Notes under the pieces: generated by a model
What the model saw: the letters and a program-made list of their open reading frames with translations, nothing else
Told to the model about the DNA's origin: nothing
Database searches by the model: none
Position numbers and translations under genes: made by a program
Shown: positions 1,521 to 46,960 of the stretch, piece by piece
How positions within the stretch are numbered: the stretch's first letter is position 1
Layout: each line of letters begins with the position of its first letter
Source: Chrysophaeum taylorii
Taxonomy: Eukaryota; Sar; Pelagophyceae; Pelagomonadales; Pelagomonadaceae
Assembly: GCA_029834535.1 (NCBI GenBank)
Contig: JAQMWT010000149.1
Span: 62,001 to 126,000 of the forward strand
Direction of reading: 5' to 3'
Length of the DNA stretch: 64,000 bases

Positions 1521-1984
1521 GGCGCGAACTCTGCCCCGTCTTTCCTTTTTGCTGTCATTCTGTATTCTGATCCTGCGCGCTGTGGCATTGGTGGGCAGCC
1601 TTTCACTAGATCGTTACTACGTATTCGTTAGTTAGAGTTGAACTCGCGAACGAAGATGACCATCCTCAGGATTTGCTGGATGGACGCAAGGATATGGATC
1701 CACTGCACTGCGATCAGTGGCTGGTGCGTGTCGCCTCCCAGCCGGTGTTGAATATGACGCCGCAGAGATGATGTCGCGCATTCGCGATCGGGTTGCGAGC
1801 TTCGTCGACAGCTGCGTGCTAACCTTGTACGTACAGTGAAAACGCGCAATACAGCATTAACTAACCATGCCCAAGCCACGCTGCTCGCCGCGCACGGCGA
1901 GATGACCTTCACGAATATGATTATTGCCCTGCGTCCAGTTGATGGCATGGATTTGCGGCATGGGATTCTACGTAAATTTGCATA

Positions 1985-2025
1985 AGATATTATGGTTTGC
2001 GACTCCCAAGCTCAAGAGCCACAAT
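1985..2025 (+). repeat. Short dispersed repeat with GGCTC/GAGCC hairpin motif (diverged copy)
   Basis: TATTATGGTTTGCGACTCCC followed by AAGCTCAAGAGCC matches the unit present at about 46310, 46435, 49866 and 50208. Confidence 0.5.
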
Positions 2026-3009
2026 ACAATGGGTGATCCTTGGTAATCCTGGCCGTGTTCAATAGGGTGTAGCCGTGTCAGAAGAGAAAGCGGGCGCCAA
2101 GTGAAGGTCGGAGATGTCTCGTGACTGACGAGGATCGCGATTCCCGCAAATCGTGCGAGATGTTGTTGTCGGACTGCTCGAGTTATAAATAAATTCGAGA
2201 TCATGCTTTGTCAGCCCCGATGCAGCGGCGAGAGAGATGCCACGAATGCGTGCCACGGTACGCCCATATTATTCGAGTTGCAAGGAACCTGCGAATTTCC
2301 GTGAAGTCGGATCCAAGAATGAGCTGCTGCAAGGGAACTTTCGAATTCCCGTGAAGTCGAATTCAATGAAGTAGGTATCGTGGCTAGCCGGGTGGAGAAC
2401 GCCTCGTCGCAGGGTCAAGTCGGAATGCCTCGTATCACGAAAATCGCGCGTGATGGCACCAAACCTCGCGGCCCGAGTGGGACGTCGCGTGTTTTGCCGT
2501 TCAGCTTGTTGTCGAGGGCCTGCTTGAACGGGGCCAGCAGCGTGGCATTCGCGATCACGCGGATTATCGATCGCAACGGCATCAAAATACTTTCCAAACA
2601 CCCGTGATGATGAAGTTTGCAAGGAACTCTCCGCCACTACGGGAGGTGCTTGGAAATTCGGCAACCCCGACTCGATGGCGCCCTTGAACGAGACTGTCTA
2701 CTCCGACAATCACGGACCCACGTGCCCGTTGGCAGAATGAGCACTTATTACTGCGGCGAGCAGGGATGCCGACGATGGCACTCAGAACAACCTGGATCCG
2801 CGCGAGCCTGATAATGCGCTGGCCACGGGGCCGCGAAGGGCGTTGTTACAAACAACAACGTAGTTTTATCAATCGCCTGGTCGACGGAGAGCCTAGTTTT
2901 TTCGACAGCCAGGATCATGGCATCGCGGGGGCCGACCTTCGTGGCGAACTTGACACGGGCTCACTCCCAAACTGAGTGGCTCATAAAATTTCTTTCAGGA
3001 CGATGACAA
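2026..3009. other. No recognisable gene
   Basis: Only short overlapping frames without domains. An imperfect direct duplication is visible at about 2286-2360: GGAACCTGCGAATTTCCGTGAAG and GGAACTTTCGAATTCCCGTGAAG share most bases. The region looks like decayed repeat DNA. Confidence 0.35.
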
Positions 3010-3640
3010 CCGCGTCCACCTCCACATCTTCAAGCAGAGTGACGCCATCGGGGAGAACGATAATGGCGGCAATAGTGGCGCGATCGAAGAAGATCTCGGC
3101 CGAGAGCGTGCCGATAAAGCCACACGAGGCGCGAGCGAGGCGCGGGGTGTAGCCTAGTTTGGAGTCGTTGTCGATCTTCTAGCGACTCCGTGACGTCGTC
3201 CATCTTGACGACCGACATGCTTTCTTCGCGAAGCTTCTTCTCCCACGAGCAGGCTCTTGTATTGGACAAGCTTGTTCGCGGCGTACGAAATGCGCAAAAT
3301 GGCCTCGATCTCGGCAATTCTAGTCCAGTCCTCGTCGCGGAGCTTCCGAGGGACAGTTTTCCAGGGCTGGTAGAGCCGCAGATTTCGATGCAGTCGGAGC
3401 TCCACAGGTTGTTGCGGACTGCCACGCATGTGCCGTCGACTTGGAGTCGGATCGTCGGGAGGTCCTGGAGGACGGTTCGTGCTGCCAGTTTGAGTACGAG
3501 AAGCAGACGGCCACGCATACGCCCTCTTCGTTGTGACTTAGGCTCTTAAGGAACGTGGTCACGTGCTTCTTCTGCTTTGTGTGCACGAGGTCGCCGATGC
3601 AGGACCGCGAGATTTTGCTTATCTTGTGCACATGTCGCAG
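3010..3640 (-). pseudogene. Degenerate coding-like region, possibly transposon-derived
   Basis: On the minus strand several short frames have protein-like composition but sit in different registers. One (about 3175-3429) contains DEDWTRIAEIEAILRISYAA. Another (about 3010-3150) contains CGFIGTLSAEIFFDRATIAA and ends in a stop near 2993. Upstream, around 3500-3631, is a third segment starting MHKISKISRSCIGDLVHTKQ. The pattern is that of an ORF broken by indels. The Trp/Ile/Leu-rich helix is loosely reminiscent of hAT-type transposase cores, but I cannot identify the family. Confidence 0.3.
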
Positions 3641-4071
3641 GCGTTGCCTTCGTAGCCGAGGTCAAGAGGCGGCACCAAGTGCCGGTGAATCCTGGACATA
3701 GTAACGGCGCGCTTGCACTCGATGATTCCCCATGCGCTCGACCGCGAGCGGCCTTGTCGTGGTCGCATGCCGTCAGCGATTCGCGGGAAGTCGAGGCATT
3801 CAGACAGAAATGAAGCTCAAGCCGACATTGTGGTCACCGTTGGCTGCAACGGGATTTTGAGTGGTACAACCACAGTTGGTGTACGAGTCCGCAGCGGCGC
3901 TTATTACGGAGCCTTCTTCTCTTCGACGTCGAACACCACCAGCGCGGAGTCGCAGTGATCCTCAACTGCAGCACTTCGTTTCTATCCGCCCTCGGTCACC
4001 TCATCTGACGGCTGAGTCATTTTGCTGCAGTGTGTGTTCGCAGTGGCAGCGGGACGCCGCGCCTCTCAGTA

Positions 4072-5008
4072 TGGCTGCTTCGAAGTCATGGAAGGACCAA
4101 ATTATTGAGGCCGCATATCAAGTTGACACCGCGGGTCGATGGGTTGTTGATTGGGACTTTGCGGCGCTTGTCTCGAAACGCCAGCCAAAGTCCATCTCAC
4201 AATTCGAGCTGAAGGTAGCCTTTGGGGGGAAAGACCGTCGTAACAATAAGTCGGCATCGGTACCAGAGCGCCGAAGGACAAAGCCACTGGGGCTACATCA
4301 GCAACCCCTCCAAGTTTCAGGGTCGGCCTCTTAGACGCGGCGGCTGCTCGTTGCGCCTTGCCTCGCGACGCCCGCGCTAACGACCACGAGCTCGCCTGCC
4401 CCGGCTGGGACTTTCCCCGGCCGCCTACGTGGGGTGTCATCTCGGGGGCGGCCCGAGAGCCAGACGCTCCGGGATCCCGTGCGTCAACCTCTACCATCAC
4501 CGCCACTCCGGCGTCAACGCGAGAAAATTCTCTGCCGTTGACGAAACCGAGGAAGAAGCGACGCGCGCACTCAACTCCGGCCAAGGGACCCAAGCAGGAT
4601 GCACCGTCGTTGGCGCCTGCTCGTGACCCCAGCGCCGTCCTCAAGAAGGCCAAGATCCCCACCCGCGACCTGTCTTGCCTGGAAAAGGAGAACGAGATCC
4701 TGAAGGGCAGAAATGAGTCCCTAACAGCTAATCTACGACGAGCCGAATCCGCGCTCTCCGAGGTCGAGGCGGCCAACGTCGACCTGCGCAGTCAGATCAA
4801 CAAAGCGCGGCTCATCGCCTACGAGAAGCTCGACGACGTCGACAAAACCCTCGCCAGGCAGCGCGTGGCCATCAGCCTCAACGCCGCGCTGATCGATAAG
4901 CAGCAAAAACAGATAGCTGCGCAACAATCCAAGCTGGACGAGCCGCAGCGTCGTCGAGCCAAAGTGCCTGTCACCATCAACACTGCCAATACCGATTCTA
5001 GCAACTAG
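4072..5008 (+). CDS. Hypothetical protein with C-terminal coiled coil, in two reading frames
   Basis: ATG at 4072 starts MAASKSWKDQIIEAAYQVDT and runs to a stop near 4332. A second frame, open from 4250 to 5008, continues with a Pro/Thr/Arg-rich linker and then a long coiled coil starting at ENEILKGRNESLTANLRRAE. The two overlap at 4250-4332, so joining them needs either a short intron or a frameshift near 4235-4330. The N-terminal part has a compact Trp-containing segment (WVVDWDFAALVSKRQ) resembling a small helical domain. The linker is basic (KPRKKRRAH) and could be a nuclear localisation signal. I do not recognise the family. It may be the ORF of a mobile element, given the decayed repeats to its left. 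Confidence 0.4.
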
Positions 5009-14210: not shown

Positions 14211-15801
14211 TTAGCCCGGCGCGTAACTCCCGGTCTCCGAAATGATTTCTCTCGCGAGGAGACCGGAGTCAGTGTAATCTTCTTCAGTCCACACGCCCCT
14301 GATGCTCGACCCAGGCTTCAAAGCCGACGCGCCTACGAGTACAAAAACAACAAAAAAAGGTGAGATCGTGCGGCGGCGGACAGCCAACGCGTTTTTTTTT
14401 TTTTTTTTTCGCGAGGACGCGCTGCTCACCTTCGTTCTTATCGTTGAGAACCCAATTGACGTGGCTGATGCTGCGCTCGTCCATGAAATCAATCCATTCG
14501 CGCACTGAGTCCTCGTCGGGGTTGCCCGAGCCGTCTGCTGAGACCGACCCCCACTCGCTGCAAAACAAAGTGACGTTCGATGCCGCTCGAGCGTAATCGC
14601 GTAGCCATTCGCCGTGGCTAGCAGCGTAGAAGTGGAAGACGTAAGCGATATTGATGTCGTCTATCGGATCTCTGGAGGCCTCGTCGACGCGTTGACTGTA
14701 GGATCTAGTCCCCACGAGAATGAGGTTTTCCGAGCCGGTCCGACGGATGCTCTCGACGACCGTCTCGGCGTACGGTTTGATGGTCAAATCCCACTCGGTC
14801 TCGAGAAGTGGCTCGTTGTAAATCTCGAAAATAACGTTCGGCATGTCGCTGTAGACCGTGGCTACGTCCTGAAAAAAGCGTACCGCCTCGGAGAGATAGT
14901 TCTGGGCGTAGTGCGTGTGCCAGTCGATAATGACGTAGATGCCCATTCTGATCGCCGCGTCGACGACGGTTAAGACGCGCAACTTGTTCGCCGTTTCATA
15001 ATCGATGTATCCACCTTCCTCCTCCACGCCCATCGCGCAGCGGATGATACTGATGTTCCAGTTGTTGACGAGGCTCTCGACGACCCCTTCCGTGTAAAAC
15101 ACGTGGCCTTCCCAGCCCGTGTTCGTCCAAAACAGCGACATCCCTTTCAACTGCACCTCAGTGCCAGTGACTTGACTCACGAGCCGTGTATTACGCGCCT
15201 CGAGAAGACCGTATTTCGCCACGATGGAGCCGGGAGGATTCGCGCGATCCGGGGTCGGAACCGTGGACGGCACTGCCGTAGTTTCGGGCGGCGTCGGAGC
15301 CGGCGTCAACGTTGGCGCCGGCGAAATCGTGGGTGGCATCGACGGCTCGGACGAGGTTGGCTCCACCGTCGACGGGGACAAGGTGGGATACATGGTCACG
15401 TGCCGATTGTCTTTCGGATTGCCGCTCCGCATGTTGTGTCCCACGCGGGCGATCAACGCGACGACGACGATAAAGCTAACCAGCGCGCCCAAGCCGATTG
15501 CAAAGAACGTGCTCCAAGGCATGCGGTTAGACCCATCGTCGCCCCCAAACACGCAGCACCTCGATCGTCGCCGTGGCTTGTACAACACGGGAACGATTGA
15601 CCCATTAGGCGGTGGCACGATCGCATCTTGGAAGAAGGGCCGCTGGACGCGCCCCCGTTGCGTGGCAGCCAAAGAGCCTTTTTTCCACGATTTATCGTCG
15701 ACTGGGGGGTCGTCGCTCTCGCTCGCTACCGTTTCGATAGTCGGCAACGACACCAAGCTCGTCTCGGCCTCGAGCTCCTTGGCTTCCTCAACGGGAGCCA
15801 T
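14211..15801 (-). CDS. Membrane-anchored glycoside hydrolase family 5 (endo-beta-glucanase-like)
   Basis: Two exons, 15801-14430 and 14332-14211, joined across a 97-nt intron (GTGAGC...TCGTAG). The join restores NDKNE-GASALKPG, as expected for the GH5 barrel end. The product is 497 residues. An N-terminal cytosolic tail is followed by one hydrophobic helix (about 98-120, FFAIGLGALVSFIVVVALIA), then a Pro/Thr-rich linker and the catalytic domain, giving type II topology. The general acid/base is E330 in EIYNEP and the nucleophile is E416 in LFCSEWG; IIDWHTHYAQNY is also typical. Family knowledge supports cleavage of beta-1,4-linked or mixed glucans. Exact substrate is not readable. The gene is divergent from the GT2 synthase at 16399. 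The intron contains an 18-A tract on the coding strand. Confidence 0.9.
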
Positions 15802-16398
15802 CCGTCGTAGTAACAATATATCACTTCGCGCCGCTCGCGGCTCAGAAGGGGCAGAACCGTTTTTTTCTACAAGAGAAGATATTATTTTCTATGGCTCAGG
15901 ACTAAAGATGCCTTCAACTATCAACCTGACATCATACCAATAGTTACTTTTTGCCAAAGTCAAGAATTACTAAGAACATTCTCCCAAAAAAATGAAATTG
16001 GGACGAAACAGCAGAATTCTATTGAGATTTTCCAATGGGCAAAAATTATTTGGATCGCCTGCTTACTAAAGGTTGGGCGGGTGACCTGTGTACTAGTCGA
16101 CTCATTTAATAAGAATTTTTGCTGCCAGTCATATTGTTGCAACAAAAAATTCAATACAATGGAAAAGTAAAACAACTCGTGCGTAAGTCTGAATTTTTTT
16201 CGAGTGAGACCACTGACTGGGATATGTCGGGATCCACACCGCCTTTTCTATTGAAGCCACCGAGAGATACCGACGTTAACAAAAAGCGGTAAGAGGCAGA
16301 GGCGCGCAACCACACATTTAGGGCACACGCGGCGTCCTTGAAGGCCGCCTTCACTACGACTAAAGGCGTACGGTAGACCTGCGGGCGACGGCCTTTGG
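15802..16398. promoter_or_regulatory. Shared upstream region of the divergent GH5 and GT2 genes
   Basis: A 597-bp gap between two head-to-head glucan-related genes. It is AT-rich around 15900-16190 compared with the flanking coding sequence. No clear TATA element or operator-like repeat was identified, so the call rests on position only. Confidence 0.35.
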
Positions 16399-22343: not shown

Positions 22344-24998
22344 TTAAGAAGAAGACGAAGAAGAAGCGGCAGCTGCTGGTTTTGAAGTCCGCCAGGTTCG
22401 CGAGATGGTTGGGAGGTCGGCGGTCCAATCAGGGCATTCGGGGATCGCACGGTTCTCGGCGGCCCTTAGTTTAAATTCGACGTCCTCGCGGTAATCTTCT
22501 GGCCTAGAGAGGACGGGTTTGAGGGGTGGGACGGTCTGTTTGTGTTGGAGGCCGTCCCAGTCGAATCCCGAGAACCAAAAGTGTTTTCGAACGGCTGCCC
22601 ACCCTTCTTTGGAGTTGCCAAGGCGCTTCTTCTGGTGGGTTAGGAGACGCGATATGAGGTCCTTGAGGTGTTTGGAGAAGCGCCGGGGATACTTGGGCCG
22701 CATGCGGAGGATCTGCTCAAAAAGGGCCATCTCGTCCTGAGCAGCGAACGGACCGTTCCCGTTCCCGAGCTCGAAGATCAAGACTCCGAGCATCCAGAAG
22801 TCAACAGAGTGGTTGTGGCCCTCGTTTCGAAGAATTTCGGGGGCGAGGTACTCGGGAGTGCCGCACATCGTCCACGTCTGTGGAAAAGAAAATATAAGAA
22901 AAGAGTCAGGCGAGCTGCAACAGCGCGGCAACAAACCAACGAACAAAAATGGAGCACACGACATGCGTGCGCCACTTTAACATGCGGAGACAACACTTAC
23001 GTTCCACCCGGTGAGAATCTTGGAGAGACCGAAGTCGACGACTTTGAGGTATCCTCTTTCGTCGAGGACGAGATTTTCGGGCTTGAGGTCGCGGTAGACG
23101 ACGCCGTGCTCGTGAAGACACTCGAACGCGAGGATGACTTGGCTCGCGTAAAACCGTAGCATGGGCTCGGCGAAGCATACGAGTTTTTGAAGGTGTGAGT
23201 AGAGTTCGCCGCCTGGGAGCAATTCGAGAACGAGGTAGACGAACTTGTCTGTCTGCATTGCAGCATACAGTCTCAGGATAAACGCGCTGCGACACATCGC
23301 GAGAATGTTACACTCCGTGACGACATAGTCCTGCATACTCTCCTGGATAATTTTGTACTTGGGCTGACATTTGCAGGCGTAGTGGTTACCACTCCGGCTG
23401 TGCCGCACCAGCCGGACGGTACCGAACGAGCCGCGGCCGAGCGTACCGAGGACGTCGAAGTCGTGTATCCCGACGCCGCGATCCTCGTCAATCGTCGTCG
23501 TCGTCGTCGTTTTCCTCGCCTTGGCGACGATGCCGGCGTATGGGTCGTTGTTTTCATGTTCTTCATCTTCCTCCTGGCCGTCGTATTTTTTCTCCGCAAG
23601 CTTGCTCGTTCGCCGGTCCTCGCCGGTGGCCTCGAGGTCGTGCGCCTCCGCCAAGAGCTCGGAGAGAGAGCCAAGGTGCTGGATAAAGTCGGCGCGACTC
23701 AGGGTGAGAAGACGGCAGTCTGTGACGGCCTTGACGGAGGCGGCGCGGACGTCTTCGTTGATGAGCGCGAGCTCGCCAAAGTACCCCCCGGCGGCGATGT
23801 TCGTGACGCGGTTCTCGGCGAGCACGACGGACATGCGGCGACACGAGCTCGGCAGATTCTTGTGGACACTCACTTCACCCGACTCGATGAGATAGAAGTG
23901 GTTGCCGACTTGTCCCTGGCGAATGATGATCTCCGACGCCACGACGCTCTCGGTCTCGAGCGCGCCCGCGAGGCGGTTCAGCTCAATGTCGGTCAGCAGC
24001 TCGCCGAGGGAGATTTTTTTGGCGGTGTCGCCGACGCACACTTCGCGCAAAAAGTCGACTCGCCGTTCCATCTCGTCCCGCTGAATAGTTTGCAGGACCG
24101 CCTTGCACTCGTCGCGCCGAATGGCCCAGAGCTTGCAGTCGGTCACGGCGTGGATCGTCGCGGCGCGAGGCGTGTCGTACATGAGCGCGAGCTCGCCAAA
24201 ACTCGACCCGGGGCCCAGGACGTGAAGGAATTTTCCCAGCGTCGCGTGCGTGCGGAAGAGCCTGATGTCGCTGGGTGAAGTGGAAGTGGCCGCGTCCGCG
24301 CCGTCGTCTTCGTCGTCGTTCTTCACAAAGACGCGGAGCCGGCCAGACTCGACGATGTAGAAGAGATCGCCCGCGTGGCCCTGCGTCACGACGTTGTTCC
24401 CCGCGCTGACCTCGATCGGCGCGAAGGGATCGGTGAGTGCCTGTTTGACGGGCGACTCGAGATCGGCAAAAAGGACGTTGTCCAAACAGACGTTCCATAT
24501 GAGCTCGCGCAATTCGTCCGACTTGGGCACGATCGGCACTTCCTCGAGATTTTGCGCGGTGTCCCGCGGTCCGAGGATCACCTTGCGTTTCTTCGCTTCT
24601 CCCGCTTCGTTGCTCGATTCAACGGGCCTTTCTTCTTCTACTTCTTCTTCTTCTTCTTCTTCTCGGAGGGCGGCCCGTCGTGATTTCGGGTGTTGTTGAA
24701 GCGCGCGTCCGCACTGGTGCTTGAGGACGTCGAGCTCGAGCTCCTTGAGTCTGGCGAGGTGGCGCAAGCGGACGAGCTCTTTCTCCTGCTCGTTCATGAT
24801 GCGTCTCGCCTCCTCGAGGTTGGCGGACTCGACAGTAATGGACAGCTTGGAGGTGCAGCGCTTGGAGATCGACCTCGCGATGACCCGCTGCATATTATTG
24901 TTGTTGTTCCGCGTCTTGTTGCAATGCGGCGGCGAATCGTTTGGCACTCGCGCATGTTCATCGACGACTTTGGTCTTCTTACTCGCGCCGCCTCCCAT
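22344..24998 (-). CDS. Cyclic-nucleotide-dependent protein kinase (PKG-type fusion) with PKA-type binding cassettes
   Basis: Two exons, 24998-23001 and 22877-22344, with a 123-nt GTAAGT...CACAG intron. The product is 843 residues. MGGGASKK at the N-terminus is a plausible myristoylation site. A leucine-rich coiled coil (60-100) could dimerise. CNB-A carries FGELALMYDTPRAAT (267-281) and CNB-B carries FGELALINEDVRAAS (407-421). The AGC kinase domain from 513 has GRGSFG (521-526), K543, YRDLKPEN with D637, DFG (655-657) and GTPEYLAPE encoded at the start of exon 2, followed by an AGC tail. The single-chain layout is that of PKG, but both cassettes have Ala after the phosphate-binding Arg where classical cGMP sites have Thr. 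Nucleotide preference is therefore open. A glutamate tract (about 113-123) comes from a TTC microsatellite. Head-to-head with the EEP gene. Confidence 0.93.
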
Positions 24999-25153
24999 AA
25001 CAACGCGCGCTTTTCTTTCCTTCCCCCTTCCTTCTTCGAGGCAACGAAAGATTCTCGAGGCCCTTGGTGCGGAAAGGCAACAGCCCCGAAAAGTTAACCA
25101 AAACCCTTGTCGACGACGACGATGACGTACATTCGTGGAACGACGACAAAAAA
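24999..25153. promoter_or_regulatory. Short bidirectional upstream region of kinase and EEP genes
   Basis: Only 155 bp separate the two ATG codons of divergent genes, so core promoter elements for both must lie here or inside the coding sequences. TTTCTTTCCTTCCCCC-type pyrimidine sequence is visible near 25012-25037. No TATA box is seen. Confidence 0.4.
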
Positions 25154-26482
25154 ATGCATGCCGTAGTGGAGGAGGAGGTGCTCGAGGAATTGGAGGCGGA
25201 AGTCCAACAGCAGCCCGACTACATGCAGTCCGTTGCGCGGTCGTTTCCCGAGGCGAGCGAGAGTCGGTTCGGTCGGCGGCGGTTCGGCCGCCGCGAGAAG
25301 AGTTGCGGCGCCGCGAGCGATTACGGGCTCGAACTGCGCGAGGCCGAGGAGGCACGGGCGCTGAGCGCGGCCAAGCAGCAAAGGCAGAGCCTGTCGTCGC
25401 GGCGGCACCGGCGCGAGCGATCGGTCGCGCCCTTCCACGAGTCGATAAAGTCGGCGATCATCGACTCCAAGGTCTCGCCTTTCGTCGCGACCGTGCCGCG
25501 CGAGCTCCCGCCGCCACTGGGGCGCGTCGTCGTCCGCGACTTCCGGGCTGTGCGGCACGCCCCCAAGGACTGCGTGCGCGTCGTGACCTGGAACGTCGAA
25601 CGCGGCTACCGCCTCGCCTCGGTCATCGCTTCTCTCCGCTACGAGGACGCCGACGCCGTGCTCCTGAGCGAGGTCGACGTTGGGTGTGACCGCTCGCAGA
25701 TGGTCGACGTCGGCGCAGAGATCGCCGCCGCTCTGGGACTCGTCATCGTCTTCGCGACCGAGAAGATCCACGTCAACGACTGCGCGCGCGACGACCCGAG
25801 CGCGACCGACGCCGACGCGTTCGGAGGCGTCGAGGGCGTCGCCGTCCTCTCGAGGTTCGACGTCCTCGACTTCGAGGCCATCTTCTTGCCCGACGCCTCC
25901 AAAAAAAACGACCCGCGCAAGCAGCGCCTCGCGCTTCGCGTCGCGTGCGCGGCCTTTGATTTTAACCGACCTCCTCTCGACCTCGTCGCCGTCCACCTCG
26001 ACGCCTTCGCCGGCCGCTCGAGCCGCGTCGACCAGTTCCAGCCTGTCATCGACGACTGGCGACGACGCAAAGGAATGCGCGACGACCAACCCGCGCCCTA
26101 CGTCATCGGCGGCGACCTCAACACCCACAACCACGGCGTCGTCGCGCTCCACCCGGGCATGACGGGCGACGACTACTGGGTCACCCGCCTCTGGCGCGGC
26201 AAGGGCTTCCAGACGACGACCTGGGGCCAGACTGAAGCCGAGTGGTGGCAGCAAAACGTCTTCAAAGACACCACCCTTTCCGATCCCTTCGACAAAAACG
26301 CCGACGGCAAGCATAACCCCTCCGTCCACGTCGGCGGCCTCAAGCTCTGGGCCGGCAAACTTGACTGGCTCCTCTTCGACAAAGACGCCCTCGCCTGCGT
26401 CGCAAAGCACGCCTCGCGCGCAAACCAGGCCTCCGACCACCCCTACCTCCGCCTTGACCTCAGACTCAAGCACAGGAGATGA
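25154..26482 (+). CDS. Endonuclease/exonuclease/phosphatase (EEP) family protein
   Basis: 442 residues from the first in-frame ATG at 25154. The frame is open upstream to a TTG at 25064. The C-terminal 300 residues form an EEP fold. Residues matching the active site are N147 in VTWNVERGY, E173 in LLSEVD, H281 in AVHLDAF, D321 and N323 in IGGDLNTH, D404 in GKLDWLLF and D428/H429 in ASDHPYLRL. All Mg-binding and catalytic positions appear intact, so phosphodiester or phosphomonoester hydrolysis is likely. The substrate (nucleic acid, lipid headgroup or other) cannot be read. The N-terminal 120 residues are charged and Arg-rich with no transmembrane segment or signal peptide. Alternative start codons at the downstream Met residues would still keep the domain. 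Confidence 0.85.
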   Translation: MHAVVEEEVLEELEAEVQQQPDYMQSVARSFPEASESRFGRRRFGRREKSCGAASDYGLELREAEEARALSAAKQQRQSLSSRRHRRERSVAPFHESIKSAIIDSKVSPFVATVPRELPPPLGRVVVRDFRAVRHAPKDCVRVVTWNVERGYRLASVIASLRYEDADAVLLSEVDVGCDRSQMVDVGAEIAAALGLVIVFATEKIHVNDCARDDPSATDADAFGGVEGVAVLSRFDVLDFEAIFLPDASKKNDPRKQRLALRVACAAFDFNRPPLDLVAVHLDAFAGRSSRVDQFQPVIDDWRRRKGMRDDQPAPYVIGGDLNTHNHGVVALHPGMTGDDYWVTRLWRGKGFQTTTWGQTEAEWWQQNVFKDTTLSDPFDKNADGKHNPSVHVGGLKLWAGKLDWLLFDKDALACVAKHASRANQASDHPYLRLDLRLKHRR

Positions 26483-36010: not shown

Positions 36011-38995
36011 CTACTTGCGATGGCTTTTCTTGGACGACTTCTTTTTCCTCTTGGGGCGGCAGAAAATGCCGAGGAATGAGGGCGACTTTTGCCGTTCAAC
36101 TGTAACAGACTTCTGTTTTGACGTTGCCAAGTTAGCTTTTAGTTTGTCACGCAGGAGTTTCGCAGCGCCTTTCACGTGGATCGTGTCGCCGTATTGGACG
36201 TTCCACTCGAGCGTTCGCATCATGTCGCCCATCACGTCTCGTTGCATCCGAATGAACTGTTCATTGTTCGCGTCGTCATTCGCGATGTGGTACAGTAAAC
36301 GGCACGAAGCCTCGTCAGACGCGTTGGTGGCCGTCCGTGCCACGAGCTGCATGAGCGTTTTAATTCCTCGGGGGGAGTTGACAACCATGTTTCGATGTTG
36401 TCTAGAGTCCTTGCAGAGGGCCCATAGAGCAGTAACGGCGGCCTCCTTGGGGTCGTCCTTATTGATGGCGTCGATAAGCCGCACGAGCGACGGAATAGCA
36501 CCTCGCGAGACAATAGCGGACACGTTGGTGCGATTGCTTTCAGCAAGTATCCTGAGCAGGCGCGCGGCTTCTTGCTTGGCGAGCAAGACGCTCTTTTGAG
36601 ACGAGCCATCCACCTCCAGTCGCAACAAATCGACCAGGGGGATGATGGCGCCCTCGTTGGCGATCATCTCCACGATCTCGGGCGCGCTCAGCGACGAATT
36701 CTTTTCAGTGTGCAGGATGAGCTTCCGAAGTGCCTTGGCCGCCTGTTCTTTGATGAACCAGCTGCTCAATCCCCCCTCGGTCGACGTGCTCGTCGCTTCC
36801 GCGGCCTTGACTAGTTGAATGACGATCCCCTTGATCGCAGCAGCGGTCAACAAGGGCGAGTTGGCGGTCTGAGCGACGGTCGCCAGATGGTCGAAGAGAT
36901 AGCGGACGAGTGCAAGCACCGCCTGCGACATGTCTGGGTTGGCCTCGTCGTCGAGGCTGTTGAACGAGGCGATAGTGTTCGAGGCGCCTTCGATCGTAAG
37001 GAGATCCCCACGCATGCGTAGCGCGAGCGGAGAGACGAGGTTAAAGAGGGTGTCGGCGGCGACGGCCTTGGCCGCACCAGCGAGCTCGTCGACCTTCTCG
37101 TCGTTGGGCTGCTCGAGGCGCCGCTCGAGGACGTTGGCGAGGGCCTTAAGCCCGCCTTGGCCCAGGACAAGCAAGCGCCAGTTCCGCGTGGACATCGAGT
37201 CGTCAGCGTAGAGGAGGATGAGAACCGCGCGTGCGGCGAGCAGTTGTTCCTCGGCGTTGTAGCTCGACCGCACAATGAGCAGCAGCGATTCGACGAGCGT
37301 GTCGCCGCTCTGCACCAGACCCCTCGCGTACTGGGACGGAGACTCAGCGTCGAGCGTGCGCCATAGTGGAGTCAGGTACCGATTGTCGCAGTTGTGATCG
37401 GCCACACGCGCTACAACAATTGGTAGTACGCCGTCCTCGATCATGCAGGCCCTGTTATCCTCGTTGTAGCACGCGAGTGCCCAGAGCGCGCGGCCAAACT
37501 GGTCGAGCTCGGGCTGCTTGCAGTGGACGTTCAACATCCCGACGAGGGCGCTAACGCCGCCGGTGCGCCGAATCGTATCCCGATGTTCGCGCTCGGCAGC
37601 GCCATCATCTAGACCGCAGAGATCGGCGATCCGCGACGCCGCGCGCGCACGCTTGGCATTATCGCACGGCTGGTTGGAGAGGAGCGAGGCGAGAATGGTC
37701 GCGTCGGTCGTGCGATGGACCGAGTCGTCGTCTTGAGAGGCGGACTCAGCAGAAGACTCCGAGTCGACGGCTATGTACGAGACGGCTCCTTTTCGCCGCG
37801 CGTCGATCTTGAGCTTGGCGTGCCGTTGCGCATTTAGTGCTTGGTCATAGAGCTGCTTGCGCGCGGTGAATCGGTCGCGCTCGAGTGTCGCGTGCCTGCC
37901 GCCGTCGTGGTGCTCCAACTCGAGGCGTGCCGTCTCCGCGACGAGGCGTGCCGTCTCGGAGTCGAGGCGGTCGGCTTCCAGTCGCAGCTGCAACGAGGTC
38001 GGGTTGCGGCCCATGTTCATGGGTGGTTGTGGTGGTGGTGTTGGGGAGGGGTCTGCAGCAGGCGACGGTGCCGTTCGCGACGTCGGCGTCATACGGGGCG
38101 CGACGATCGGTGGCAAGAACGCCACGGTCCTCTCTCGCATGGGCTGGACAAGTCGAATGGTGGCGCATATTGTGTTGAAGAGGACCTGCTCCGACTCGAG
38201 CTGCTGTCGCAGCTCATCGCGTTCAAGCTGCTGCCGCGCGAGCGCGTCCTCGGGCTCGGCGTGCACGTCGTTGTCGTTCTCGGCGTCGACCATGGCACGC
38301 AGAAATTCCTCGTCGTCGGCCACGTCCTTGCCCGCGGCCGACTTTGCCGCTGCAATACTCTCACGCAGCTCGTCGCGCGACTCTGTGACGAGGAGCATCT
38401 GCCGCATCCAGTCATCGTCGTCGGTCGCGAGATCGGCGATGAACGCTGCCTCTTTCGTCTTCGAAAGAAAATTGGCCGCGTCGTGCGAATCGACGCCACA
38501 GTCACCAAACAACTTTGCTTCCCGAATCATTTCCCCATAGGCTTTTTCAAAGTGCCGGTCGATCTCATCAGGCTTGATCCGGATGGCGAGCTCCCGTTGG
38601 GCTGCCCCGATCCGAACGCAGAACGGGCTAAGGTCGGCCGTCGCGTTGACGGGCTGCGCCCGGATCCACAGCAACCAGGCGTTGTCGACGTTATGAAATG
38701 CGGTGCTCAAACGGCTTCCGTAAGTGTGGAGAAAAAAGCGGGTCTGTAGGGGTCGGCTCTTGCACAAATTCAGAATGGTCCGAATCTCGATCTTGGCGCC
38801 GCGAAAAAGTTGCGTGAGGCGGGCAACTTCCTGTTTGCGTTCTTCGTCTTTGGTCGTCGCTTCGATCTTCGCCGTACACTCGAACATAATTTCGAGGATC
38901 CGGAGGGCGGTCTCGCAGTGCGGTTTCAATTCTTTGAACGACGAGTACCGCATCGCTGAAGCCGCGGTGGCCAAAGTCGACCTAATCTCCCACAT
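36011..38995 (-). CDS. Armadillo-repeat protein with N-terminal helical bundle and basic tail
   Basis: 994 residues from ATG at 38995, one exon. Residues 1-110 look like an amphipathic four-helix bundle (ALRILEIMFECTAKIE, then FHNVDNAWLLWI). A charged region with predicted coiled coil (about 225-300 and 335-400) flanks a Pro-rich linker (PTPPPQPPMN). From about 430 to 930 there are armadillo-type repeats, for example GGVSALVGMLN, EGAIIPLVDLLRLE and RGAIPSLVRLIDA, each followed by a helix with ALWALA or AARLLRILAE. The C-terminus ends in a Lys/Arg cluster (RPKRKKKSSKKSHRK) that could bind membrane or act as a nuclear signal. A protein-interaction scaffold similar in style to Vac8/ARO proteins is likely. 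The N-terminal bundle superficially resembles HeLo/MLKL-type bundles, which is only a suggestion. Confidence 0.8.
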   Translation of the reverse strand: MWEIRSTLATAASAMRYSSFKELKPHCETALRILEIMFECTAKIEATTKDEERKQEVARLTQLFRGAKIEIRTILNLCKSRPLQTRFFLHTYGSRLSTAFHNVDNAWLLWIRAQPVNATADLSPFCVRIGAAQRELAIRIKPDEIDRHFEKAYGEMIREAKLFGDCGVDSHDAANFLSKTKEAAFIADLATDDDDWMRQMLLVTESRDELRESIAAAKSAAGKDVADDEEFLRAMVDAENDNDVHAEPEDALARQQLERDELRQQLESEQVLFNTICATIRLVQPMRERTVAFLPPIVAPRMTPTSRTAPSPAADPSPTPPPQPPMNMGRNPTSLQLRLEADRLDSETARLVAETARLELEHHDGGRHATLERDRFTARKQLYDQALNAQRHAKLKIDARRKGAVSYIAVDSESSAESASQDDDSVHRTTDATILASLLSNQPCDNAKRARAASRIADLCGLDDGAAEREHRDTIRRTGGVSALVGMLNVHCKQPELDQFGRALWALACYNEDNRACMIEDGVLPIVVARVADHNCDNRYLTPLWRTLDAESPSQYARGLVQSGDTLVESLLLIVRSSYNAEEQLLAARAVLILLYADDSMSTRNWRLLVLGQGGLKALANVLERRLEQPNDEKVDELAGAAKAVAADTLFNLVSPLALRMRGDLLTIEGASNTIASFNSLDDEANPDMSQAVLALVRYLFDHLATVAQTANSPLLTAAAIKGIVIQLVKAAEATSTSTEGGLSSWFIKEQAAKALRKLILHTEKNSSLSAPEIVEMIANEGAIIPLVDLLRLEVDGSSQKSVLLAKQEAARLLRILAESNRTNVSAIVSRGAIPSLVRLIDAINKDDPKEAAVTALWALCKDSRQHRNMVVNSPRGIKTLMQLVARTATNASDEASCRLLYHIANDDANNEQFIRMQRDVMGDMMRTLEWNVQYGDTIHVKGAAKLLRDKLKANLATSKQKSVTVERQKSPSFLGIFCRPKRKKKSSKKSHRK

Positions 38996-39790
38996 CTTTC
39001 AGCCGCCCCAATCGCGAGAAACAGGCCGCGCGATAGTGGTCACCTCCACGCGGGGCGCCGGGGTGATGTCAGCGGGTCACGATTGGCCAGGCTCCGGCAC
39101 ACTCATCGAAACCTGCCAACTGGTTCGTTGGCCGACGTTCCTCCTTTCCTGGTACAAAATCGAGTGCCAACTGTTGAATACTGAGTGCGTCCAGGGAGAG
39201 GGCTCTCTTAGCGGAATGCAATGCGAAGGCTTCTTTTTAGAGGGCTTGGAATGACGCAGGATGTATCCGTCGTCGGAAACTAGGAGAAAAACCTTAAAGC
39301 ACAGAGGTGCGCAGGAAATCCAATAGCAGAATTTTTTTCCCATTGAATGCGTCTCTTAAGAGTTTGGGACATGGGATTAGGTCATTCTGACCGGACATCT
39401 TGCAAAAAGAAAAGAAAGGAAAGTATTTGGCGGAATTATTCACCGCGTCACAGCTAACCCCACACTGTCTTCGGAGAACTCAGAACTCAACGGATCTATT
39501 CGGCGTCACTCGCTTAACACTTGCGCAGTCTTGTTGAAGATACATCCCGAAGATACCTTAATAATTTGGAAAAGAAATAAGAACCACGCTAGCACATCGA
39601 GGCTCCCGGAATTCGGAAAAACGATTCTTTCGTGCGTTCGCCCGGATACGAAAGTTGTGGATGTATTCACAACAAAACCCGTACACGGTGGGACGGAGGG
39701 AGGTACCAGAACAAGAGGGGACCCCCAAATTCCATCACTCTATGCTTACGTGGTGCGTCTGTCACTAATCAAAGACCAGTTGGTGTACTA
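38996..39790. other. Intergenic region upstream of the receptor-PARP gene
   Basis: Shared upstream region of two divergent genes. Relatively AT-rich from 39330 to 39620. No gene or clear element recognised. Confidence 0.5.
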
Positions 39791-42700
39791 ATGTTCTTCT
39801 CGCCCAGGGGGCCGGCAGGGAGGACTATGGGAGCGGCGTCTGCGGGAAGCTTCGCCGGGGCCGTCCTCTTCTTGGTGGGCCCTCTTGTGGCCTGGCATGG
39901 CGTGGTTGTCGTTGCGGAGGACCTTCCTCCGTGGGATGTGGAACTCGTCATGTCGTCCTACGTCCTGGGCGCCGCCTACCCCGTCGACGAACGGGCCTCG
40001 GAGTGCAGCTCGGACCAACTGCGATCGAGACCGTGCCAATGCTTTGGCGGTGCCGCTCGTCGCGCCGCGATGATCCAGGACGTCATCGCTGGAAACGCAA
40101 GCGAAAGTGGTGGGGAACGCGCCGCGGTGCCCATCGACCTCGGCGGCTACTTCTTTGGCTCTGGCTCCTTCTACCAAACCTTCAACGGTTCGGCCTCAGC
40201 CCGTCTCTTCGGGTCGGCGGGTTACAAGACGCGAGGTTTGACATTTCGTGATTTCGCCGCCGGCGTGTCGGAGGATGATCCCACTGGCGGTCGGGCACTG
40301 CGGGACAACATACGGCAATCGCAGAAGTTCACCGAGGCAATGGGTGGGGTCGCGCTGCCGGCGGTCTGCCATCCGAGTCCACCTTGCTTGTAACCCATGT
40401 GGTCATACTAATGTTCACTCCTTTCTCGCCCCGTAGGTCGCGACGAACCTTGATTTGAGTGGCGACCCTTACTTGAATGATGAGGATCTCGTCAAAACAT
40501 ACGCGGTGGTGACGTTCGACATCGAGGACAACGGAGCGCTCCAGTGGCAATCGGGTGGTCGGAAAAAAATGGGCGTGTTGTCACTCATTGATAGCAGGGA
40601 TCTCGCCGAGGTCTCGCCGTACTACGCGAACAGGACAATCCCTTACGAGCGGGCTATTACGACCGCGCTCATAACGATGTACCGAAATCTTGAAATACCG
40701 CATTCGGTGGTTCTCTTGGTCCAGGGAGTCCCATTTAGTGACATGCGCGAGCTCCTAACTGATTTCAACGACGATCTCCTACAAGGTATCGCAGAAGAAG
40801 GGTTGCCAGAAGGATTGAGCTTCGAAACGATTGCGGCGAGTCGAGAGCTCTTGGCCGTACACGCCATCGCCGAGAAGTTCTACGAAATCGACTTGATTCT
40901 GCTGACGAATGGCGACGCGAACGTCGCGAGCCTCTTTGCTGCCGAGCATCCCGACGGGATAGCGGAGATCAAGAATTGGGCTGGAGATACGGTCGCCGTC
41001 TCTCTAGTTGGAGGTGAAAGCGGACGCGGGATCGAGTCGACGAGAGTACGGGTGACGTTTGACGACATCGGTTTCTACCAGGCGGGCTCGATACGCCGCG
41101 AGGTTGTTACCCTCGACTGCAACGTGAGCGAGGATGCCCAAATTCGTGAGGAACTCGACGCCTACAAGGTCGAAATCGAAGATAGGGCCGACCACTTCGA
41201 ATACGGGCACGCTGGCTATGTTGCGCGCACCATCGACTCGCGGTTCTACACGGACGGAAATTGCACGACGCCACCCGGCGGCATGTCCTTATGCGGCTGC
41301 TCTGTGGCCGAGTGCGCCGCGGGAAACCTCGTCGCTGACGCGTACATGTGGTATTCGGGCGCGGACGTTGCTCTCGTCGTCGCGGGCGCCTTGACCGATT
41401 CTTCGCTCACTCCCTTTCAAGTTCGACAATCCCACCTCCTTGAGATGTTACCCGACACTGGGGACGAGGTCGTCATCGTCCGAGGCGTCTCGGGCGCCGA
41501 TTTGCGCCAACTGTTGGAAGCTTCGGTCACAACAATTGAAATCAATGAGACGATGGGTGGGCACGGGAGGTGTATATTCTTGCAAGTATCCCACTCGCTC
41601 AAGTTTTATTGGTTTTACGAGTCGATCACGCCGACGCTTGCCGACGATTTCTTTATCAATGGGACGCTCGTCAAAGATGATGACGAGTTCACCGTGGCCG
41701 TCTCGTCTCGCCTGCTGCCAGCGAGGTACGGTACTGGTATTGCAAGTGGTGTTAACACGCGCGAAAATGACATGTACGCCAATTTACTGGTTTCTCAGGA
41801 GAAGCAGAATTCTTATTTGACGACGTGGATTAAGATGCTGGGAGTGTCGGCGCATCAAGTGGTCGCGGCGTACCTCAGTGCAAACTACCCTGATCCAACG
41901 AACGCACTCGATCCCCTCGAGGCCTACGACGAGCCACGTATTGAGCAGACGGCAGACGTCGCACAGATGCATATCGCTGTCCTGTGCGGTTCAACAATCG
42001 CGCGGCGAGAGCAATGCGATCACGCGCGTCACGCCATCGATCTCATCAACAACCACCGCGATGGTTTCTACGACGAGCTTATTCCCCATTCCCGCTTGAT
42101 TGTATACGAGCGCACCGTGGGTTGTGCGATGGGAGGCGCCTTCGACGGCCTGGTCGATATCGCGCAATACTTGCAGCAATTAGAGACACCGGCGCGGCTC
42201 ACGGCGGTCGTGTTGACTTGTAGCGATGACGTCGCTGACGTTGCTTCAGCTGAAGCTCGCCAGTCCTTTTCCGAGTTGTTCCCGTACCAGGGTTCTGATT
42301 ACGTCGTCATCTCACCTTCATCAACCGCGCCTGAACTCGCCGACGAGACCGCGTACCCACTGCTCGCGCGGCTTGCGACGCCTGAGTCCGACATCGCCAG
42401 AGCCAACGAACAGTTGTTGTCACGTTTCCATTGGAATAGGGTTGCTGTCGTCTACGAGGACAGTCTGTGGGGGTACAGCTCTGCCCAGGCCTTTATTGAC
42501 AGTGCTTTTGGCTTCGGGGAGACGGACTATGACGACGACCACAAAGATCACGACGACGACCACGAGCACAGCCGGCGCCTCGATCACGATGATGACTATT
42601 ACTCTTCGAGTGGCCGAGTCGTCCTTGGAGATGCCTGCCTTGCCAGCTGCGCACAGCAGGCAACGAGAGCCTCTGGCGAAAGCGCGGGCGTTTCATTTTC

Positions 42701-45700
42701 GCTCGACGCCTTCGACGCCGGAGAAATTACTGGGCTCGACATCCTCCAGGCCCTCGATGGGACGGACGCGAAGATCATCTTCTTGGCGACGTATCCGCGC
42801 GTCCAACGTTCAATCTTCGCTGCGTCACGAACCAATGACTTGTACAGTGGCACGGGCTTTGGGTGGATCACCAACCTGCCCTCGGAGTCCTCATTCTTTA
42901 CAACCGACGGGATGCTCGACTACGAAGCCGTCTACGGTTCCGAGGGAGTGCTAGGGCTTGTCGAGCACGTGCCCGATTACGAGGGAGGGAACGCAACATC
43001 GTCGTACCTCGACCGTTGGATCAACGTCGCGACACTCGAAGCGTGCCAGGATCGCGAATTGTCAGTTAACGATGCGTCTGTGCGGACGACGTACTGCGAC
43101 ATCGACGACAACGGTCGGACGTTCACCGGGTACTCGGCATTTTGGGTGGACAGTGTTATCGCGCTTGCCAAGGGGCTGGATGCGATCGCAATTAATGGCA
43201 ACGCTGGTCAACCCTCGGCATCACCCGAGGGTGCTGCAATGCTTTACGATACTATCGTGCACCTCGAGCCTTTTAACGGCGTATCTGGCGACGTGGCAAT
43301 GAACGAGGAGACTGGCGATCGTCTCGGCGTTCTCGATCTCGTCAATATGCAGATCCAAATCCCTTCCCCCGACGAGCCAAGCCGCGGCCGTGCTCTACGG
43401 TCGTCATCAAGGGCTGCAGCATCACAAGAGCAGCGGCGTTTGCAGGTGCCTCTCGCGAGCACGTTCGCCGACTTCGTCTCCGTGGGTGTCTATGTCACGT
43501 TTGATTCGGCGGCAGGCCTGCGGGTGTTCTCCGATTCCACAATTATCTTCCCGGGCGCCACGACGGATATTCCGTCCGACGAAAGCGAGGAGGCTAGGAG
43601 TGACACCAACAGGCGTGTGAGCCGCTCGCGGCGGCGAGCAACGATCGCGCTCATTGCAGCCTGTATCTGCTTCGCGGGCGTTCTCGTCTGTGCCTTCCTG
43701 GGCGCGCGTTGGGCCTTTGGTCATTTGAAATCGAGTCATCGGCGAGCGCTCGTGGCTTCACTCAATGCGTACGATGTCATCGAGTCGTTCGATCCCTTCG
43801 CTGACGAAGAGCGCAAGGTACAAGTCCTCCTCAAGAGCGGCGCCGAGGATTCGACAAGCGGAGAGTTCGTGGTATCGCGTGTCCGCGATCTCCCCGAGAG
43901 TAGTGTCGTGTGTCGCCGGTCAAACCTCGACTTCGACGAGGAGGTCAAGACAGAGCAAGGTCCGGCGGTCGAGCTCACGCCGTACGCGCTTGAGCTCTGG
44001 TACTGGGAGGACGATGAGCCGGACTCGGGAAACTGGGTGATCTACGACGAGCTCGTGCAAGACCTCCTCTCAGAAACGTACAATCGCTACATGCAATTGC
44101 CCGGCCACGTGCGCGAGACTCTTGCGCGTATCGGTGACGACGAGGACGAGGACGACGAGACGGATGCTCTCGTGGGTACCGAGGAGAACCTCAGTAGCGG
44201 GCGGGTCTCTTCCGTGGGCACAGATATTGATCCGAAGTGCTACAAACTCCTCTTTTACATGGCTGGGAGTTCTACGTCAATGGCCCCCCCACCGCCCCCT
44301 AGAGGCACCGGAGCAAGCACGAGCCGGAAGCGGTTGGAGATAGATGTCGCCAAGATGCGCCAGACCAACCTCGACACGGGCACCGTCCGGAGCGTGCGAC
44401 CCCGAGTCATATTTCAACGCGTTGTGTGTCACTCGCGGATCTCGCCCTTTTTTGTTTGTTTGTTTGTTGTATCCAAAAGGCGTTTTCAGGTCAAAATGGA
44501 ATCTGGGTCGCGCCGTGTCAACATGACTTGGTTCTGGAGAGAGAACCTGCGGAACATGTCCAAGTGGCGTGATGATGTGCAGAAGGCACAAGGGACGCTT
44601 TGGGTCAAGTATGAACCCGACGTGCAACGGCGACTCTCGGAGTTGTACCTCGCCCACCGAAAAGATGCCTTCTCGCCGGCGAAACTTCGGCTTGACTCGT
44701 ACAATGAGGCTACCACGTCTGAGACTGAATTCAAGTACGAGATCGACATCGGCACAATGTGGCAAACCAAACTTGAGACGGGGTTTCGCCGCCCCGTGTG
44801 TGTGATGATCGAGGCCGTGGACAGACCTAAGAACTCCACCCACGGTGGCATCCAGGTCGTTCGTGGCTACCCAACGGTGCGCAACATGCCCGCCGACATC
44901 CAAGGCCGCGACTGCCTCAAGCTCATTCCTGGCATGGTTGTCTCCGTCGTCTACGAGCACGACAGTGGCGAGTGGGGTTTCGGTCGTGAAATTGGCAAGA
45001 ACGATGTTGTTGGCGATGTCGCCGGGTGGTTTCCCATGAGCTGTGTCCGGCCAGCGCGGCGACTTGAGATGACGGACGCGGTCCTTGACGAGTTCCGCTT
45101 TCTTCTCCCACCACAAACCTGGACTTACAACGCAGATAGCCCAATTGAACACCAGCCGAAGGTTGTGCCTCTAGGCCGCGATGCTGCTAAGGAACGACAA
45201 CTTATCGCCAACCTCTTCGACGCCGACTATTACGACGTCATCTCGGTCGAACGTATCCAAAATGTTTCGCTCTGGCGTCCATACGCCACCAAGCGCATGA
45301 CCACGCTCGAGCGCCAAGACGGCATTCCGGGTAATGCAAAGAAGCTCCAGAAACGCCTTAAGGAGGTCGAAATGTTCCCTGTCTTCCACGGCACGCAGCC
45401 GGATAGCGTTCCGAAGATCATCGAGCAGGGCTTCAACCGCGACTTTTGCAGCTCCAACAATGCTCACGGTCGGGGTGTGAGTGCACTTGTCACATCACTT
45501 CTTCGCGCGTCACCCTTTGTCGTAGGTTTACTTCGCCACCGAGAGCGAGCACAGTTGTTTCCATACGTACTCGAAGCCCGATGCAGATGGCGTCCAGCAT
45601 GTCTTCGTCTGCCGTATCATAGTCGGGAATTACTGCCGGGGGATGCCGGATGCTGTCGTCCCTCCTGCGTTGGAGACTAATCCCAACCAGCGATATGACA

Positions 45701-45807
45701 CGACGGTCGACAATGAGCATAACCCCACCATCTATGTCACGTACAATGACCACCAAGCATACCCGTCGTACCTAGTCAAGTTCAAAGCGCGCAATGACAT
45801 GCATTAG
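39791..45807 (+). CDS. Transmembrane receptor-like protein: pseudo-5'-nucleotidase + ANF-type ligand domain + TM + 2 WWE + SH3 + PARP
   Basis: Four exons (39791-40363, 40437-44393, 44490-45476, 45526-45807) with introns of 73, 96 and 49 nt; 1932 residues. Signal sequence within 1-43. Residues about 50-640 are a 5'-nucleotidase-type module whose metal motifs are lost (Y57/L59 for DxH, G119 for the GD Asp, F152/R153 for GNH), while CFGGAARR and the C-terminal AAGNLVADAYMW region remain. About 702-1200 is a periplasmic-binding/ANF-receptor fold (MHIAVLCGSTIARREQC). One TM helix spans about 1260-1285. The cytosolic part has WWE1 (about 1370-1510, LEIDVAKMRQTNLDTG), WWE2 (about 1518-1620, YEIDIGTMWQTKLETG), an SH3-like domain (about 1651-1700, GDVAGWFPMSCV) and a PARP domain with H1810 (FHGT), Y1841 (VYFATE) and I1908 (TIYVTYND). 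The inferred role is ligand-gated mono-ADP-ribosylation. The intron at 44394 keeps frame if retained. Confidence 0.88.
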
Positions 45808-46300: not shown

Positions 46301-46304
46301 ATTA

Positions 46305-46960
46305 TTATTATGGTTTGCAACTCCCAGGCTCGAAGAGCCTGAATGGATGACCGCAAGGAAACAAGGGAGCACCAAGAATACAAAGGATATGCGCGCAGAG
46401 GGGAAGACGGATGAAGCAAGAACGCACATTATTATTATGGTTTGCAACTCTCAGGCTCAAAGAGCTAGAATGGATGAGCGCAGGAAAACAAGGAGCGCAG
46501 GAAAACAAGGAAACAGCAAGAATGCAAAGGAGATGCGCGCAGAGGGAAACAAGGGTAAGAAGCAAGAAAGCAAGCGTAGGAAGAAGGGATCAATGCATAA
46601 AGGAATTACGCAAGAAGCTCCAAAAGAGGGCAAGGGGGAAGGAAAGAAGAAGGGGGAGTAGCGGCAGGCGCGGTGATGCAGAATGAGGAGACAACGCTAA
46701 ACGACGGTTGTAGCATGATGCCAGACCTCCCAAGCAGGCCTTCATGGTTTGGTTCGGGCGAGGCGGCTAAATGTCGCGAGAACACAAGGTAACCACACGT
46801 CTTCAGCATCGACGTCACAAGCTACAGGGATGTCAGTAAGCGTCGCCGGCAAACGACCGCGCTCGAAGTCATAAGCAGCGTCGGTGCCATATGTGACGGG
46901 AAGGACAGACGAACGTCGCGGTCGTAGATCAAGTACAATGGTACAGCTGTATTCATTCAA
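46305..46960. repeat. Direct repeat copy A of the repeat island
   Basis: Begins with two units of TATTATGGTTTGCAACTCYC plus AGGCTC...GAGC (46307-46345 and 46433-46475), followed by purine-rich GGAAAACAAGG sequence. It ends with a segment (about 46670-46815) alignable to 50575-50700. On the minus strand both copies can encode WLPCVL-TF-RLAR (WLPCVLATFSRLART here), suggesting a decayed element-encoded protein. Confidence 0.6.

Follow-up and report, generated by a model that had tools for sequence, protein, structure and literature searches.

A receptor-like domain architecture with a PARP catalytic domain in the pelagophyte alga Chrysophaeum taylorii

Can an ADP-ribosyltransferase be the output of a membrane receptor? 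The question is raised by a gene at positions 39791-45807 (forward strand) of a 64,000-nucleotide stretch of the Chrysophaeum taylorii genome (assembly GCA_029834535.1, contig JAQMWT010000149.1, positions 62,001 to 126,000), which was analyzed as a whole and is referred to as the window. PARPs are known to act inside the cell, in DNA repair, stress and immunity, where outside signals reach them only indirectly, and receptor guanylate cyclases carry an ANF-type flytrap outside, one transmembrane (TM) helix and a catalytic unit inside. We know of no receptor with an ADP-ribosyltransferase output, and an earlier, sequence-only reading of the window had proposed that this gene encodes one. The receptor-like domain architecture was confirmed, and we consider it fairly probable that the product is a type I single-pass receptor mono-ADP-ribosyltransferase, controlled by its ectodomain and read out by its second WWE domain.

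Domain architecture of the window gene product

We searched the spliced protein against Pfam with curated cut-offs and also scanned its parts alone. The domain order was a signal-like segment, a pseudo-5'-nucleotidase, an ANF domain, a TM helix, two WWE domains, a weak SH3-like domain and a PARP domain. The ANF_receptor, 5_nucleotid_C, PARP and WWE matches exceeded their cut-offs in this domain search, which the sequence-only reading had put forward as a check, and no guanylate cyclase or kinase output was matched in the spliced protein up to an expectation value (E) of 0.1. TM and signal segments were called as 19-residue stretches of Kyte-Doolittle (KD) hydropathy. The single TM helix (43644-43700, residues 1261-1279, KD 2.89) separates the ANF domain from the first WWE domain, the second strongest hydrophobic stretch is the signal-like one at residues 24-42 (KD 2.24), and no further stretch of the window protein reached KD 1.6. 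A TM stretch (KD 2.31-3.21) occupied a common alignment place in all eight sequences compared, that is, the window protein and seven paralogous copies; in the window protein, hydropathy agreed with the proposed signal sequence and single TM helix. The ANF domain is found on one side of this helix and the catalytic domain on the other, and the former is predicted to face outward. All eight cysteines that are invariant in the eight sequences (72, 82, 84, 419, 708, 718, 925 and 929) precede the TM stretch.

The predicted ectodomain begins with a two-domain nucleotidase module. Its metallophosphatase-like half starts in exon 1 and continues through 40437-41273, to about residue 470. Scanned alone, the N-terminal half gave no Pfam match even at E 1; its family profile matched solved 5'-nucleotidases (2z1a, E 4e-15; CD73, about 1e-9). 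The C-terminal domain (41280-41708, residues 473-615) matched PF02872 (5_nucleotid_C) at E 2.2e-14. We then read two motifs, DxH and GNHE, which bind metal in 5'-nucleotidases. Alignment to 2z1a showed that none of the eight copies retains the Asn or the His of GNHE. The DxH motif, read by eye, is covered by seven copies; all seven lack its His, and L037 and L038 retain its Asp. The acidic residue D116 was kept in 8/8. An active ecto-nucleotidase was rejected because the metal motifs are broken, and the module is a pseudo-nucleotidase, as had been claimed: it shares two-domain homology with CD73 and bacterial 5'-nucleotidases, whereas its family is without intact GNHE and DxH. The ANF, or Venus-flytrap, ligand-binding domain follows at 41961-43403 (about residues 700-1180; PF01094, ANF_receptor, E 4.8e-19), which bears out the fold assigned earlier. 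By family profile against solved structures, this part is nearest to the ectodomains of GABA-B2 and mGluR5. The window gene therefore shares a flytrap family with class C G-protein-coupled receptors (GPCRs; GABA-B, mGluR), but combines it with a single TM helix and an enzyme.

On the predicted cytosolic side, WWE domain 1 (43989-44393 and on to about 44495 in exon 3; about residues 1376-1512) carries an acidic insert and matched PF02825 in two stretches at E 4.9e-9. WWE domain 2 (44565-44801, residues 1536-1614) is the best PF02825 stretch and reached E 4.9e-7; these values are for parts scanned alone, the whole spliced protein giving E 6.6e-13 for WWE, and they uphold the call of two such domains. 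In 8/8 copies WWE2 has kept three residues, Tyr, Gln and Arg, at what we take to be the places of the iso-ADP-ribose contacts of RNF146. The end of WWE1 matched the PARP11 WWE domain (2dk6, E 0.0014), which, according to the excerpt of PMC10450202 used here, prefers terminal ADP-ribose. The SH3-like domain (44916-45053, residues 1653-1698) stood less firmly: a match to SH3_2 is present, but below the curated cut-off in the window protein (alone, E 0.0013 and 18.8 bits against a cut-off of 21.8; in the whole spliced protein, E 0.078). The corresponding region of L036 exceeded the cut-off when scanned alone (25.4 bits) and scored 19.8 bits in the whole protein.

The PARP catalytic domain starts at 45102-45476 (PF00644, E 1.2e-13), which includes His1810 at 45387, and ends in exon 4, where Tyr1841 (45529) and Ile1908 (45730) complete the triad; the description of a complete catalytic domain thus held. 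By family profile it matched PARP15 at E 2.4e-44, the nearest solved structures being PARP15 and PARP14, followed by PARP12 and PARP10. The triad was H-Y-I in six of the eight aligned copies, H-Y-V in L042 and E-Y-L in L038. A polymerising PARP was rejected because the third triad residue is Ile instead of Glu. In its likeness to PARP15/14 and in its H-Y-I triad, the window PARP resembles the mono-ADP-ribosyltransferase type (clade 3-like). Isoleucine is also reported as the third triad residue of PARP10 (excerpt of PMC2964712), which is described as a mono-transferase (excerpt of PMC4245714).

Gene model and gene family

The gene was modelled with four exons on the forward strand: 39791-40363 (residues 1-191; the signal-like segment and the start of the pseudo-nucleotidase), 40437-44393 (residues 192-1510), 44490-45476 (residues 1511-1839) and 45526-45807 (residues 1840-1932 plus the stop; the end of the PARP domain). 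They join in frame to 1932 residues with a single terminal stop, exactly as had been proposed. The three introns have GT-AG borders (40364-40436, 73 nt; 44394-44489, 96 nt; 45477-45525, 49 nt); paralogs are contiguous across the site of the first, and the third interrupts HGRGV|YFA. Intron 2 keeps the frame and contains no stop, so a single open frame (40437-45680) runs through it and the gene model needed testing. When the window protein was aligned with the seven copies, to which it is 32-44% identical, the paralogs ran without a break at all three introns. We also built a hidden Markov model (HMM) from the seven paralogs, leaving out the window protein. The spliced protein scored 1785.5 bits against it in one match (residues 49-1929), compared with 1412.8 bits in two pieces for the frame 40437-45680 and 1203.1 bits for exons 1 and 2 alone. 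Retention of intron 2, which would leave an open 1964-residue product, was rejected, as it scored 1751.6 bits in two pieces; the paralogs favour removal of the intron. The case named earlier as refuting the model, namely two separate genes or the absence of a TM helix, is contradicted by the intronless paralogs, the HMM scores and the TM stretch in 8/8 copies. A two-gene or mis-splicing artefact was rejected on the intronless paralogs and the HMM test, and these comparisons make it highly improbable that the window gene is an artefact.

In the whole genome (70.8 Mb in 697 contigs) we found 21 PARP and 34 ANF matches. Both domains fell within single frames of 1646-2010 residues in eight cases (C125, C129, C242, C370, C379 and three on C323). 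Six of these frames, including one of the three C323 copies, were translated and scanned (L035 being 24 residues short of its frame); all six showed 5_nucleotid_C, ANF, WWE and PARP matches with no intron needed, the WWE match of L042 lying below the cut-off. A further copy on C606 (L038, positions 240-4844) has a like domain order, with an ANF match below the cut-off and no PARP match in the Pfam scan. Receptor-type loci account for 14 of the 21 PARP matches: two are PstS-like (see below) and 12 have ANF and nucleotidase parts, comprising the eight single-frame cases, three on C439 and one on C388. The C439 and C388 matches are spread over several frames, and the C388 copy, with TGA within its PARP and ANF matches, may be broken. 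On C323 and on C439 the genes form tandem triplets spaced by about 7-12 kb. The window gene, whose PARP domain is split by an intron, stands outside the 21. Other PARP matches were WGR-type (C360, C552), WWE-PARP with the PARP part just under the cut-off (C122) and PARP only (C495); two on C474 and one on C480 were counted in the 21 and left out of the domain scans. C322 (L039) matched the cytosolic part, with WWE and SH3 present and no PARP match in the Pfam scan. Genome-wide, 14 of 18 5_nucleotid_C matches lie at ANF-PARP loci, including the window gene (C149) and C606.

The ratio of nonsynonymous to synonymous substitution rates (dN/dS), calculated by the simple NG86 method, was 0.30 for L035/L036, 0.27 for window/L035, 0.40 for window/L037 and 0.45 for L040/L042 over their full length, and 0.24, 0.36 and 0.43 for the three C323 pairs over 905-915 codons; in three distant pairs dS was 1.1-2.1, so those ratios are rough. 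Judged from these gene comparisons, the receptor-PARP family is shown to be maintained. A tree was drawn from 15 PARP domains, all of this genome; its nine ANF-type rows formed one side of a 99/99 branch, and the two PstS-type rows and C495 adjoined them without a resolved order, seven of the 12 inner branches being weak and five rows flagged as long. Six other ANF loci were fetched and all six had ANF alone of the pair; ephrin-receptor-like repeats occurred in five of them, one match being below the cut-off. L047, L048, L049, L050 and L052 (C366, C682, C529, C28 and C316) combine ANF with such repeats and several hydrophobic stretches and are predicted to be large multi-TM receptors; weak TRP-channel matches below the cut-off were seen in three of them. 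Viral contigs gave 54 pattern matches, none confirmed as relatives, with two patterns that were both drawn from the nucleotidase part only. Possible ADP-ribose erasers are present in the genome (three macro matches and ADP-ribosyl-glycohydrolase matches at three places), whose products could remove the mark. Matches to the chlorophyll-binding family (84, some being fragments of a single gene) identify the host as a photosynthetic alga.

In the window, the receptor gene adjoins an armadillo-repeat protein of 995 residues on the opposite strand (36011-38998). Downstream of the gene, at 46301-46554, lies a direct repeat whose 66-nt copies, at 46301 and 46428, share 89% identity; a second pair, of 62 nt, lies at 46349 and 46493 (82%). 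Farther upstream, the reverse strand carries a cGMP/cAMP-dependent kinase-like frame (22977-25457), in which a protein kinase domain is accompanied by two stretches of the cyclic-nucleotide-binding type, and a glycoside hydrolase family 5 (GH5) cellulase frame (14284-15888, E 4.7e-53).

PstS-like ectodomains and their outputs

Two further genes, L045 (1257 residues, 674-4444) and L046 (1360 residues, 179-4258), on contigs C673 and C389, are single frames in which two PBP_like_2 stretches are followed by a hydrophobic stretch (KD 2.6) near residue 750, a WWE domain and a PARP domain. The L046 ectodomain matched PstS phosphate-binding proteins (8ods, E 8.8e-35; 1ixh, E 9.3e-33), and in the alignment the phosphate contacts of E. 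coli PstS were kept, namely its serine, aspartate, arginine and SGT stretches. L045 and L046 thus appear to form a second receptor-PARP subclass, and because this subclass names a candidate ligand, phosphate, the idea of a receptor PARP is directly testable.

Each type of ectodomain was also found apart from PARP. L053 (C695, 532-4800), a single frame of 1423 residues, joins two PstS-like domains in tandem to a 7tm_3 domain (E 8e-31), is 26% identical to L045 over their alignment and is a candidate phosphate-sensing GPCR of class C with seven TM helices. L055 (C675, 2786-6325) has a nucleotidase C-terminal domain and an ANF domain, and beyond them a stretch that, read by eye, is rich in cysteine; the frame that follows is hydrophobic in places and gave no match in the Pfam scan. 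L053 and L055 together show that ANF/nucleotidase and PstS-like ectodomains both occur without PARP. The presence of PstS-like ectodomains both on a TM-WWE-PARP unit and on 7tm_3 points to a swap of sensing modules between outputs; at the level of gene comparison, ectodomain swapping in the receptor-PARP genes is shown.

Proposed mechanism, alternatives and known systems

From this architecture we infer ligand binding, transmembrane control, mono-ADP-ribosyltransferase activity and a role for the WWE domains. The dead 5'-nucleotidase module and the ANF flytrap would bind an extracellular small molecule, and flytrap closure or dimerisation would be signalled through the one TM helix to the cytosolic WWE-WWE-SH3-PARP unit. 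By analogy with receptor guanylate cyclases, the PARP units would thereby be brought together and mono-ADP-ribosylation permitted. The PARP unit would move single ADP-ribose units from NAD+ onto nearby proteins or the receptor, and WWE2 would read ADP-ribose on the modified partners, leading to recruitment or feedback.

Several observations weigh against this proposal. Three cytosolic cysteines, lying after the TM stretch, are among the 18 that six or more of the eight copies share. The density of glycosylation sequons in the window protein was not higher outside (0.63 per 100 residues) than inside (0.77), and L037 behaved likewise; in the other six copies it was higher outside, and sequon density was set aside as a topology test, being unsupportive in these two of eight. 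Extra stretches of KD 1.6-1.9 occur in the body of L035, L038, L040 and L041, and the hydropathy scan found no signal-like stretch in L042, whose frame begins inside the first domain; the topology is therefore a prediction. The SH3 match is weak, and L038, likely a pseudo-enzyme receptor, is without the catalytic His, so part of the receptor-PARP family may act without catalysis. What stands of the sequence-only reading is the architecture, strengthened by a family of genes that includes full-length copies lacking introns, the TM stretch in 8/8 copies and H-Y-(I/V) in 7/8; its interpretation as a whole is partly supported, ligand binding, catalysis, plasma-membrane location and WWE binding being predictions.

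Two alternatives, both unlikely in our estimate, deserve to be weighed against a ligand-controlled receptor enzyme. The PARP domain could be a non-catalytic binding module on a receptor scaffold that signals by recruiting WWE or SH3 partners. L038, with its E-Y-L triad and its missing PARP match, would fit such a scaffold, and plant RCD1 and PARP9 are reported as inactive in the excerpt of PMC2964712; seven of the eight copies, however, retain both residues of the pair His and Tyr and have Ile or Val as the third of the triad, and PARP10, with the same third residue, is a mono-transferase by the accounts cited above. On the cytosolic side, conservation is also highest for PARP in L035 (62%) and L036 (60%), although in L037 it is highest for SH3. 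We find it just as improbable that the protein is a constitutive mono-ADP-ribosyltransferase, anchored in the cell membrane or an internal membrane, whose ectodomain has a part in adhesion, folding or location but none in the control of catalysis. The yet unnamed ligand and the broken metal motifs would suit this arrangement, for which ER-anchored PARP16 (endoplasmic reticulum; excerpt of PMC10450202) offers a precedent. Against it stand the flytrap nearest to GABA-B2 and mGluR5 and the joining of an unrelated, PstS-like ligand-binding ectodomain to a similar cytosolic unit. Flytraps of the GABA-B2/mGluR5 type serve ligand sensing elsewhere.

Much more doubtful is an NAD+-consuming stress or cell-death receptor whose activation would drain NAD+ instead of marking targets, as TIR-domain enzymes do. 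The NAD+-using fold and the multigene family with tandem copies (three each on C323 and C439), as in recognition families, are compatible with it, but clade-3-type PARP domains are known transferases, and dN/dS stayed below 0.5, so that diversifying selection was not seen overall in these whole-gene ratios. That a receptor gene and a WWE-PARP gene were wrongly fused by a gene model with introns, drawn from the DNA only, is next to incredible given the intronless paralogs with all domains in one frame and the HMM scores reported above.

The proposed receptor ADP-ribosyltransferase resembles the natriuretic peptide receptors and other receptor guanylate cyclases in its flytrap-TM-enzyme plan (the clearance receptor was among the solved-structure matches), but differs in its WWE-WWE-SH3-PARP output and in the extra pseudo-nucleotidase in front; the design could also be read as a variation on the receptor-enzyme plan. 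The known human clade 3 PARPs are soluble. Compared with clade 3 (PARP7/10/11/12/14/15), the window PARP is of the H-Y-I type nearest PARP15/14, and the protein adds a signal-like segment, a large ectodomain and a TM helix before the WWE-PARP unit. The adjoining of WWE and PARP is as in PARP7, 11, 12 and 14 (excerpt of PMC10450202). Membrane PARPs are themselves in print: excerpts of the literature describe a C-terminal TM helix in PARP16 (PMC4245714, PMC2964712) and in a rice clade 2 PARP (PMC2964712, PMC4245714), and a sponge PARP with an N-terminal TM helix as well as rhizarian clade 3 PARPs with TM helices (PMC4245714), which corrects the earlier statement that PARPs are soluble or tail-anchored. 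The PARP16, sponge and rhizarian proteins, as described there, share TM and PARP with the window protein, but a ligand-binding ectodomain is mentioned for none of them. Receptor-type PARP ectodomains are not mentioned in the excerpts of the PARP surveys PMC2964712 and PMC4245714, and a receptor or transmembrane PARP design of this kind was not found in the open-licence literature, mostly judged by titles and abstract openings. Two diatoms and Aureococcus are listed without identifiable PARP genes in the excerpt of PMC2964712; in the genome studied here PARP was matched 21 times, in 14 cases at a receptor-type locus.

We give about even odds to the broader view that receptor ADP-ribosyltransferases form a receptor-enzyme class of their own, alongside the receptor forms of kinases, phosphatases and guanylate cyclases, with at least two subclasses in this alga, both built around a WWE-PARP unit: one with a nucleotidase module and flytrap, perhaps for a nucleotide-like ligand, and one with a PstS-like pair, for phosphate. 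If the proposed reading is true, a single molecule would link a ligand outside the cell to protein marking that depends on NAD+, mono-ADP-ribosylation at the membrane would be the direct response to nutrient and chemical cues, and the family would bear on how algae sense nutrients.

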